Part shown: piece after piece, positions 47,779-59,731 of the stretch
Numbering within the stretch: the stretch's first letter is position 1
How the letters are laid out: each line of letters begins with the position of its first letter
Assembly: GCA_020073495.1 (NCBI GenBank)
Contig: JAIQFD010000001.1
Span: 124,001-188,000, forward strand
DNA from: Terriglobia bacterium
GTDB taxonomy: Bacteria; Acidobacteriota; Terriglobia; Terriglobales; Acidobacteriaceae
Reading direction: 5' to 3'
DNA length: 64,000 nt
Program-made: the position numbers and the translations under genes
Notes under the pieces: model-generated
The model's input: only the letters and a program-made list of their open reading frames with translations
What the model was told of the DNA's origin: nothing
Databases searched by the model: none

Positions 47779-47948
47779 TGTCATCCTGAACGAGGCGCTT
47801 TACGCGCCGAGTGAAGGACCCCGCGAATGCTGCAACCCGCGACGTCAGCGCGCATGGATTCGCTCCGAAGTGCCGACCCGGCACTCTCGTGACTGCGAGC
47901 CCGTCGGGGGTCCTTTCGCTCGGGCCTTCGCCCTCGCTCAGGATGACA
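47779..47948. repeat. MITE-like element with 17-bp inverted ends
   Basis: 170 bases between cysS and arsM. It begins TGTCATCCTGAACGAGG and ends CCTCGCTCAGGATGACA; the two ends are inverted repeats with 16 of 17 bases matching. Internal parts also pair (AGTGAAGGACCCC / GGGGTCCTTTCGCTC-like). It has no coding capacity. The same TGTCATCCTGA end sequence flanks the GIY-YIG gene at 59.0-59.5 kb, so it belongs to a genome repeat family. Confidence 0.7.
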
Positions 47949-58053: not shown

Positions 58054-58962
58054 CTAAGCGCGGGTCCACTGCTTCATCGTCCCGCTGTTGGATTTGACAA
58101 CGTATCCGACCCGGCGCACCAGGTCCCGCTCTGCGTCTATCAAAGCTGGTAAGTCTATTGACGTCTTCTTTGAAACCCACTTGAGCGTGTACAAGTTGCC
58201 ATCGACAGCACCCCATCTGAGCGCCAACGCTTTGAAGACGGAACTCGGAAGGTCTGTGGGCCGAGCATTTTGAAAGAACTCCCGGATCGTGACGTACTGG
58301 TAGGCAGCCATCTCTTCGGGGCCTTCTGTACGACCCCGGTTGTATGCTCGACCATAATCCTCTGCTGTGGGCGGCCGTCCCTCGCGAGCTTCGATTTCTC
58401 TGCCCCCCGCGACTACCATGAGCAGCCAACGAATAAGTTCAACGCCCATTGGTTCCGCAAGGTGGTCACCAAGGTTGCTGATCAGAAACTCATCTTCAAA
58501 GTTAGCGCGTTTCCTTCGGTTACACTTGCGGCACAGCAGGCGAATATTCCACTCGTCCGACGGTCCACCCTTAGACCATGGAATGACGTGATCGAACTCG
58601 ACGTCAGGATCTGACACGGCGGACTTGCACACACAACAGATCTGGTTCTCGCGTTTCAAGACCCTGAACTGGGTCACTCGCGGGATTGTCCTACTAATGT
58701 TTCTGAGTTCCTTCGTTTCTGTAAATGGTTCCGCTACATAGAAAACCGGACAATCGTGCCCAAATATCCGGCAACTCCTTTCGTCGCGTTCGCTGTGCAA
58801 CGGGAATTCCTCAATTAGCGGTCCATAAGGACAGTACTTGATTTCCCAGCACGGCTTACAAACCGCTTTGACACGTCTGCCCCACCCGATCTTCTCACCC
58901 CAACGAGTGATGAGGTTCGGAGTGGTACTCCGCGTCCGTTGTGCCTTCTTGTTGCGTGCCAT
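58054..58962 (-). CDS. HNH endonuclease domain protein
   Basis: 302 aa. A C-C pair (CVCKSAVSDPDVEFDHVIPWSKGG) and the following LLCRKCNRRK form a standard HNH site near the middle. The N-terminal part has additional Cys (CKPCWEIKYCPYG, RSCRIFGHDCP) that may form a second zinc unit. The C-terminal 120 residues are unlike anything I recognise. Composition is more AT-rich than the neighbours, a sign of transfer. ATG 58962 was chosen over the upstream ATG at 59034. Possibly a restriction or defence nuclease. Confidence 0.8.
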   Translation of the reverse strand: MARNKKAQRTRSTTPNLITRWGEKIGWGRRVKAVCKPCWEIKYCPYGPLIEEFPLHSERDERSCRIFGHDCPVFYVAEPFTETKELRNISRTIPRVTQFRVLKRENQICCVCKSAVSDPDVEFDHVIPWSKGGPSDEWNIRLLCRKCNRRKRANFEDEFLISNLGDHLAEPMGVELIRWLLMVVAGGREIEAREGRPPTAEDYGRAYNRGRTEGPEEMAAYQYVTIREFFQNARPTDLPSSVFKALALRWGAVDGNLYTLKWVSKKTSIDLPALIDAERDLVRRVGYVVKSNSGTMKQWTRA

Positions 58963-59044
58963 TGCCCCTAGTATAGCTGCCGGCTCAAGGCAGCCGACCC
59001 CATGTGTTACGTCACAGACATCCACGAGCAGCACCTATTACAAA

Positions 59045-59081
59045 TGTCATCCTGAGGGGCTCTAGCCCCGAAGGACCTCGG
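59045..59081 (+). repeat. 37-bp inverted repeat, left copy
   Basis: Begins TGTCATCCTGAGGG and ends CCCGAAGGACCTCGG. Its centre forms a hairpin (GGGGCTCTAGCCCC). It lies three bases before the GIY-YIG start codon. Confidence 0.85.
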
Positions 59082-59084
59082 ACC

Positions 59085-59486
59085 ATGTGGGACTCGCAGA
59101 ATCGTAGACCGGACCAGCAGAGATGCTTCTACGTGTACATCATGGCCAGCAAGAACCGTGTGCTTTATATCGGCGTGACGAACAGCCTGGCAAAGCGCGT
59201 GTGGCAGCACAAAACCCACGAGATCGAGGGATTCACCAGCAAGTACAAAGTTCACACGCTCGTGCATTTCGAATCGTTCGACGATGTGCGCAATGCAATC
59301 GATCGCGAGAAAGTGCTGAAGGGGTGGACGCGCGCGAAGAAGATCGCATTGATCGAAGAAACCAACTCGAAGTGGAAGGACCTGGCGGAGGGGTGGTATC
59401 GCAAGCTCTCGGATGAACAGATGAAGAAGCAGTTTGCGAGGCGAAATCCGGCGGGGGCGGGGTCCGGGGAGAAACCGGTCAACTGA
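59085..59486 (+). CDS. GIY-YIG nuclease, flanked by inverted repeats
   Basis: 133 aa, single GIY-YIG domain: FYVYIMASKNRVLYIGVTN, then RVWQHK and the catalytic Glu in the REKVLKGWTRAKK region; close to the UPF0213-type small proteins. The catalytic Arg and Glu positions look intact. The frame runs upstream to 59004 through the inverted repeat; ATG 59085 is the first start after it, but no ribosome-binding site is visible. Together with the repeats at 59045 and 59506 it forms a compact 0.5-kb unit. Confidence 0.85.
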   Translation: MWDSQNRRPDQQRCFYVYIMASKNRVLYIGVTNSLAKRVWQHKTHEIEGFTSKYKVHTLVHFESFDDVRNAIDREKVLKGWTRAKKIALIEETNSKWKDLAEGWYRKLSDEQMKKQFARRNPAGAGSGEKPVN

Positions 59487-59505
59487 GTCGTGAGTTGCTA
59501 CGGCT

Positions 59506-59542
59506 CCGAGGTCCTTCGGGCGTAAAGGCCCTCAGGATGACA
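59506..59542 (-). repeat. 37-bp inverted repeat, right copy
   Basis: Reverse complement begins TGTCATCCTGAGGG and ends CCCGAAGGACCTCGG, identical to the left copy outside an eight-base centre (29 or more of 37 bases match). It lies 20 bases after the GIY-YIG stop. Confidence 0.85.
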
Positions 59543-59607
59543 GCGCTTAAGGGTTCCAGGTCCAAACATCGGGCGGGTGGCCCACGCCTTACGGAACCTG
59601 AGGGTGC

Positions 59608-59638
59608 CCCACCCTTTTCGCGCCAGCGAAAGGGTGGG
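59608..59638. repeat. Hairpin CCCACCCTTTTCGC / GCGAAAGGGTGGG
   Basis: A 13-bp stem with one bulged T and a four-base loop. No T-run follows on either side, so it looks like another palindromic repeat family rather than a terminator. Confidence 0.6.
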
Positions 59639-59731
59639 TAAGCAAAATCCGCTCTCATCCGCGTTGATCCGCGGTCAATGAATCCCCTCCGCATCCTCTG
59701 CGATCTCGGCGGTGAAATCTTTCCGACGCAG

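Follow-up and report, generated by a model that had tools for sequence, protein, structure and literature searches.

The window, by which we mean the whole analysed stretch of 64,000 nucleotides from a Terriglobia bacterium, carries a small gene for a GIY-YIG nuclease (ATG at 59085, stop codon at 59484-59486), which is enclosed by two hairpin repeats (REPs) in inverted orientation. A doublet of such repeats is present elsewhere in the window. The coordinates of these features are listed in Table 1.

Table 1. Positions of the GIY-YIG element and of the gene-free REP doublet in the window
Feature	Position	Strand	Characteristics or basis
Left REP	59045..59081	+	TGTC tag, outer stem TCCT/AGGA, GA/GA internal loop, inner GC stem
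GIY-YIG nuclease gene, 133 aa	59085..59486	+	Pfam PF01541, 54.5 bits (cut-off 22.6)
Right REP, inverted copy of left REP	59506..59542	-	Sequence comparison
REP doublet, 170 bp, non-coding, REPIN-like	47779..47948		Outward TGTCATCCTGA tags

Repeats around the gene and in the host genome

An earlier note on this DNA had described the gene as bracketed by 37-bp inverted repeats that match outside the hairpin centre, and both statements were confirmed: the two copies are identical at 33 of 37 positions, all mismatches are central, and both have the layout TGTCA-TCCT-GA-inner hairpin-GA-AGGA-CC. The spacing to the gene was given correctly for the left side (3 bp), but is 19 bp and not 20 bp on the right. 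Pairing of the hairpin centre by different bases in each copy, which had also been claimed, was seen by eye at one inner pair that is swapped from G-C to C-G, but the next pair is broken (C-C) in the right copy. Upon folding as single-strand DNA, the left REP forms a simple hairpin with 4+5 pairs, an internal loop, a 4-nt loop and CCT after the arm, while the right REP adopts a different and better fold. In the stretch 59070-59087, the conserved GAAGGA arm of the left REP lies about 10 bases 5' of the ATG and could be the ribosome-binding site of the gene. A divergent ORF beside the element (58054-59034) has an HNH-like motif recognised by eye and is a putative second nuclease gene adjoining the first. 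An RNA-family search of positions 58900-59700 gave no match.

With up to one mismatch allowed, TGTCATCCTGA was found at four sites in the window, each of them exact and each at an end of the gene element or of the doublet, whose outward tags are the same as those around the gene, as the earlier note had stated for the common end motif. The chance expectation is 0.94 sites on average and four sites were reached in 3 of 100 shuffles, so the window alone is weak evidence and the case rests on other genomes.

Three genes with PF01541 were identified in the genome of the host, namely the window gene, a second stand-alone gene (L011, the same as L016) and UvrC. The second stand-alone gene has outward TGTC repeats on both sides, with quite different inner hairpins, and outward tags likewise precede the domain of the host UvrC, by 181 and 244 bp. 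A strict repeat pattern matched nine times in this genome and a looser tag, TGTCATYCYGAG, 115 times, against no match for either of the reversed controls.

The nuclease and its distribution

PF01541 is the sole Pfam domain of the window protein and scores above its cut-off (Table 1), which places the protein in the GIY-YIG superfamily. Y18, Y28, R38, H42, E75 and N94 are invariant in alignments of 43 and of 26 rows and are the putative catalytic residues of the GIY-YIG family. The AlphaFold model has a mean pLDDT of 81.6, with 80 residues at or above 90, a well predicted core and a low-confidence C-terminal helix. Among solved folds, the nearest were those of UPF0213 proteins (E 1.3e-3) and of Slx1, a nuclease of branched DNA (E 1.4e-2); no match reached 0.001, and the sequence match to UPF0213 was weak (1ywl, E 0.14). 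Kinship with structure-specific nucleases would suit recognition of a hairpin. For the two proteins tried against NCBIfam, no family was found above the cut-off. The dN/dS ratio was 0.05-0.27 in six of nine nuclease pairs, with dS above 1 in five of these six, and the other three pairs gave no ratio. At four loci (L018, L021, L037 and L053, possibly one site in several genera) the GIY-YIG frame continues into the downstream gene to give ORFs of 307-393 aa; the downstream gene, recognised by eye, is presumably enoyl-CoA hydratase-like.

The low dN/dS and the nearest solved folds would both suit a structure-specific nuclease maintained by the host, beside which the REPs serve as terminators or regulatory hairpins in a unit that does not move. 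We regard this reading as highly improbable in view of the patchy distribution of the gene, relatives of which were found in 61 of 100 host-family genomes, one of them (G075) with as many as 8 distinct sites, and of the in-frame stops that 24 of the 149 match rows contain (a hand count in which pieces of one gene may be separate rows). The occurrence of like units in different surroundings and the presence and absence of the unit at one site, both described below, also argue against it.

Bracketing of GIY-YIG genes by outward repeats

The host-family set comprised 132 loci, from which the short-fragment rows G052:C392, G080:C12, G024:C51, G061:C56 and G023:C44 had been left out. Inverted repeats were searched de novo by comparing the 300 bp upstream of each gene with the reverse complement of the 300 bp downstream, and control intervals of the same length were taken from the same loci. 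At a score of at least 14, such repeats were found at 94 of 132 genes and at none of 297 control intervals; the corresponding values were 104/132 against 7/297 at a score of at least 12, and 121/132 against 61/297 at a score of at least 10. When the tag motif itself was used, 88 of 131 host-family genes had an outward pair within 300 bp and 43 had none, while inward pairs were found at 17. Counted by single sides (n = 131), outward tags were upstream of 105 genes and downstream of 98, compared with inward tags at 44 and 42, respectively. By the de novo comparison, here and in the wider set below, terminal inverted repeats as in a classical insertion sequence are present at about two thirds of the loci. 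Among control intervals, one per locus from both the host-family and the wider set, 1 of 180 had an outward and 2 of 180 an inward pair.

The wider set was assembled from a scan with one genome per species, of which the best 80 of 113 loci were used, and from a protein search of plasmid records (35 records, 14 fetched); L283, L284 and L285 were left out of the analysis. De novo inverted repeats with a score of at least 14 were found at 61 of 91 wider loci, compared with 2 of 231 random intervals and 9 of 183 ORF intervals, and by tag pairs 55 of 90 loci were outward and 26 of 90 inward. As 14 wider loci repeat places in the host-family set, these were removed, after which 48 of 76 had outward and 23 of 76 inward pairs. 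The outward pairs were distributed as follows: Acidobacteriota 14/25, plasmid records 9/14, Pseudomonadota 5/8, Bacteroidota 4/5, Elusimicrobiota 3/5, Bacillota 2/4, Ignavibacteriota 2/2, Melainabacteria 2/2, Peregrinibacteriota 1/2, Roizmaniibacteriota 0/2, unranked 1/2, and Chloroflexota, Planctomycetota, Verrucomicrobiota, Vogeliibacteriota and Komeiliibacteriota 1/1 each. Outward GTCAT tags on both sides were recorded in Azospirillum lipoferum, Rhizobium CIAT894, Neorhizobium, two Shinella, Neisseria, Planktothrix and Spirosoma, and the variant tags CGTCGCC, CGTCACC and CCTCAT in Novosphingobium, Sphingobium and Sinorhizobium C101. At the S. meliloti locus the left tag is intact and the right tag is mutated; no clear tag pair was found at the Photobacterium and Rhizobium tumorigenes loci, nor an outward pair around the one phage GIY-YIG gene (33% identity). 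In Planktothrix agardhii (L189, NZ_LR882964.1) the gene has an MmeI-type restriction gene on one side and DISARM drmA on the other, apparently in a defence island. Two of the plasmid-labelled records, L187 (Neisseria gonorrhoeae, 2.2 Mb) and L188 (S. meliloti 'pSymB', 3.7 Mb), are chromosome-like.

Many GIY-YIG genes elsewhere are flanked by the repeats too, in the host family, at the further loci and at the second stand-alone gene of the own genome. The repeats are not equally common beside unrelated genes, as is seen from the control intervals and from the Y1-transposase loci considered below. The arrangement proposed in the earlier note, like that of REPs and their transposase with a GIY-YIG nuclease as the candidate mobiliser, is supported by this outward bracketing relative to the controls.

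Co-variation of the hairpin arms and agreement of the two ends

In the host-family loci, the outer arms are complementary in 269 of 288 distinct units (the 3' arm is missing in four), and the pairing units comprise 113 with TCCT/AGGA, 90 with TCCC/GGGA, 31 with TTCT/AGAA and 35 with TTCC/GGAA. Of the 58 elements readable at both ends, 51 have the same arm type on the left and on the right, compared with a mean of 19.8 and a maximum of 32 in 2000 permutations. On a quick tree of 92 nucleases, 18 changes of arm type were counted for either side (71 and 65 labelled rows), while shuffling gave 32.8 and 29.4 on average and never fewer than 24 and 23. Between different genomes, the arm type is shared in 149 of 293 pairs of close nucleases and in 443 of 1478 distant pairs, although these pairs are non-independent and include host ancestry; within one genome the values are 7 of 14 closer and 10 of 23 distant pairs. 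Arm type may thus track the ancestry of the host rather than the nuclease. As far as can be judged from sequence, the hairpin of the repeat has been maintained and the ends of an element are matched. In one genome (G029), all ten neighbouring pairs less than 300 bp apart were outward-tagged, among the 40 of 136 tags listed.

Signs of movement

In three genomes, two copies of the unit (L052/L057, L079/L080 and L100/L101) are alike from GTCAT to ATGAC, that is from REP to REP, with 75-85% identity, and differ within a few bases outside, where the surroundings are unrelated. For L032/L060, likeness that stops at the REP end was seen on the right side. L110/L111 was set aside as a copy pair, being near-identical only in part.

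The search for empty sites, which the earlier note had suggested, yielded gene-free sites that mostly lack the repeats. At one conserved site, for which 30 loci were fetched from matching genomes and six single-flank loci dropped, tags are present in 7 of 7 genomes with the gene and in 1 of 18 without it; in seven of these 18 the gap is short (11-113 bp), and in the rest the site is occupied by other DNA. In Azospirillum lipoferum, the gene and two REP doublets lie inside a 617-bp gap between sufB and sufC, while the same gap is 87, 91 and 129 bp in A. oryzae, A. ramasamyi and strain B510 and holds neither gene nor tag. For the window element, no syntenic flanks were found among the relatives searched, and the site of the doublet at 47.8 kb was rejected as a clean empty site because a sister genome has a single REP there. 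At one Sinorhizobium site (L188 and L282), a seemingly partial GIY-YIG copy in S. meliloti Ak57 corresponds to a single, almost perfect palindrome in Sinorhizobium K101, which is formed by two outer REP arms. The difference looks as though the interior had been either lost or inserted at the centre of the hairpin. The contrast is compatible with insertion as well as with deletion between palindromes, and we did not treat the site as empty.

These sites bear upon another explanation, in which a free-standing, homing-type GIY-YIG gene enters REP doublets that already exist, REPs being hot spots for insertion, and another agent moves the REPs. In the available text of PMC1525189, insertion sequences are described as targeting REPs; the REPs far outnumber the gene (115 tags against two stand-alone genes in the own genome), repeat-rich genomes free of the gene exist, and the single palindrome of K101 stands where the arrangement of Ak57 is longer. 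On this explanation the gene would enter sites that already hold REPs, but the gene-free sites mostly have none (1/18 against 7/7 at the conserved site, 0/3 in Azospirillum); copies within one genome share the REPs along with the gene, and the arms at the two ends match each other and track the tree of the nucleases. We therefore consider it unlikely.

No convincing regular short target duplication was found among the elements (4.2%, compared with 1.7% +/- 1.1% after permutation), and the fixed-length target site duplication of a classical insertion sequence is lacking. With tags masked, long direct repeats in the flanks reached a score of 20 at 8 of 143 elements and at none of 405 same-size intervals; at a score of 12 there was no clear excess (18/143 against 35/405). 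The clearest case is L035, where 33 bp around a stop/start junction are duplicated exactly, with 19 bp between the duplication and the left tag and about 50 bp on the right. The long flank duplications hint at a repair-type insertion. Around L016, L035, L115 and L202, 33-113 bp of the adjacent host DNA is directly repeated on both sides. At L109, L116, L136 and L187 the flank repeats include REP sequence or arrays, or border on them, and were rejected as target duplications; L276 was left out.

Taken as a comparison of sequences, these data support both the association of gene and repeats and the mobility of the unit, and the element appears to behave as a moving unit.

Repeat numbers and other candidate enzymes

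Genomes with the gene (n = 61) contain a median of 52 copies of the gapless tag, and those without it (n = 39) a median of 11 (Mann-Whitney p 2.9e-8); the reversed control is near zero. Tag number and gene number have a rank correlation of 0.61, where gene numbers are match rows in which the pieces of broken genes count separately (10 rows for 6 places in G004, 9 rows for 8 places in G075). Among 21 same-genus pairs, gene number differs in 17, and tag number agrees with it in 11 and opposes it in 6 (p 0.33).

A profile search of the 39 gene-negative genomes found a family member in one only (G059). An orphan repeat population is present in G033, a genome in one contig and 100% complete, with 167 tags and no family member. 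Each of seven tag-rich negative genomes, G033 included, has one PF01541 gene, with a frame of 616-682 aa, which is the size of UvrC. Such genomes may have kept old repeats after loss of the gene, or a different enzyme may act in them. UvrC was also used as a GIY-YIG control: in the 400 bp that precede the domain, 2 of 10, that of the own genome included, carry an outward tag, compared with 105 of 131 family genes in the upstream 300 bp.

Mobilisation of the REPs by Y1/RAYT transposases, with the GIY-YIG element as a passenger, was also considered. RAYTs are linked with GTAG REPs and REPINs in the available text of PMC3116915, and Y1_Tnp genes were found in 18 of 20 genomes searched, with 97 matches. 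However, of the 30 loci fetched from these 97, none had an outward tag pair and one had a single outward side; G035 and G020, with 187 and 97 tags, carry GIY-YIG genes and gave no Y1_Tnp match; and the available text of PMC3733652 (Di Nocera et al. 2013) records no tyrosine transposase flanked by CGTC repeats. Such a role of Y1/RAYT transposases is very unlikely in our view.

Proposed role of the nuclease

We propose that the feature is a compact mobile unit, composed of a REP, the GIY-YIG gene and an inverted REP, and that the nuclease is a dedicated mobiliser of the CGTC/TGTC REP superfamily; we put the probability of this reading at roughly 0.7. Bracketing and mobility are suggested by comparison of genomes, and from them we infer the enzymatic action. 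The nuclease would recognise the tagged REP hairpin, either single-stranded or extruded, and may nick near the (C/T)GTC tag at both ends, after which host replication or repair would copy the unit to a new place. Gene-free doublets, such as that at 47.8 kb, would be non-autonomous passengers acted upon in trans, as REPINs are for RAYTs. It also seems fairly probable that this GIY-YIG lineage, across more than ten phyla, is the dedicated CGTC/TGTC REP mobiliser, moving itself and the doublets via the tagged hairpin, and is an independent, non-homologous counterpart of the RAYT/REPIN system.

The points that comparison supports are the bracketing, the co-varying arms, the agreement of the ends, the copies that extend from REP to REP, the sites with and without the unit, the invariant putative active site and the low dN/dS. 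Against the nuclease as mobiliser stand the gene-free G033, the non-significant contrasts within genera, the genes without an outward pair, the inward pairs, the tags at UvrC, the lack of a regular duplication and the possible host ancestry of the arms.

If the nuclease is the mobiliser, the spread of one of the two large REP superfamilies would be explained by a concrete enzyme, GIY-YIG nucleases would gain a mobile role in bacteria beyond introns, and REP systems would have arisen with unrelated enzymes. CGTC REPs are described as apparently without a dedicated transposase in the available text of PMC3733652, and the GIY-YIG candidate makes the question directly testable. Among open-licence PMC papers, preprints excluded and broader queries judged by their best matches, we found no paper joining GIY-YIG nucleases with bacterial REPs or dRS3; the idea may exist elsewhere.

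Comparison with known systems

GIY-YIG homing endonucleases, of the I-TevI and I-BmoI type, resemble the present protein in their catalytic domain and in a selfish-like spread, but the 133-aa protein has no second known domain, no intron was noticed, and REPs bracket its gene. The UPF0213/Slx1 GIY-YIG nucleases are the nearest in fold, with modest scores, and the match in sequence is weak.

REPtrons, which combine REPs with a RAYT/TnpAREP transposase, and REPINs are alike in having a small nuclease gene between inverted, tagged hairpin REPs and gene-free doublets elsewhere in the genome. The enzyme here, in contrast, is a GIY-YIG and not an HUH/Y1 protein (PF01541 is the only Pfam domain), and the tag is TGTC or (C/T)GTC and not GTAG. 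Since REPtrons are defined by the RAYT transposase, the present unit is not a member, but it may work like one.

The CGTC REP superfamily, as far as it is set out in the available text of PMC3733652, is defined by a CGTC tag or its TGTC and CCTC variants, a stem of 8-9 bp, a loop of 4-5 nt and a CCA-like tail, and its members are mostly inverted dimers (HH dimers), to which we take the outward-tag doublets to be equivalent. It includes dRS3 of Neisseria and repeats of rhizobia, sphingomonads and Rickettsia; the same text lists it from five phyla, Acidobacteriota not among them, and reports no dedicated transposase associated with it. The tag found here is TGTC in the window and CGTC in rhizobia, Azospirillum and Neisseria. 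The hosts overlap as well, with Neisseria, A. lipoferum, Sinorhizobium meliloti and Novosphingobium aromaticivorans both carrying the gene and named as hosts of CGTC REPs in that text. The units described here differ in their GA/GA internal loop and variable inner stem, and they agree with the superfamily in the tag variant of the window, in a hairpin that starts with AT and, as counted in the one genome G029, in being mostly inverted dimers.
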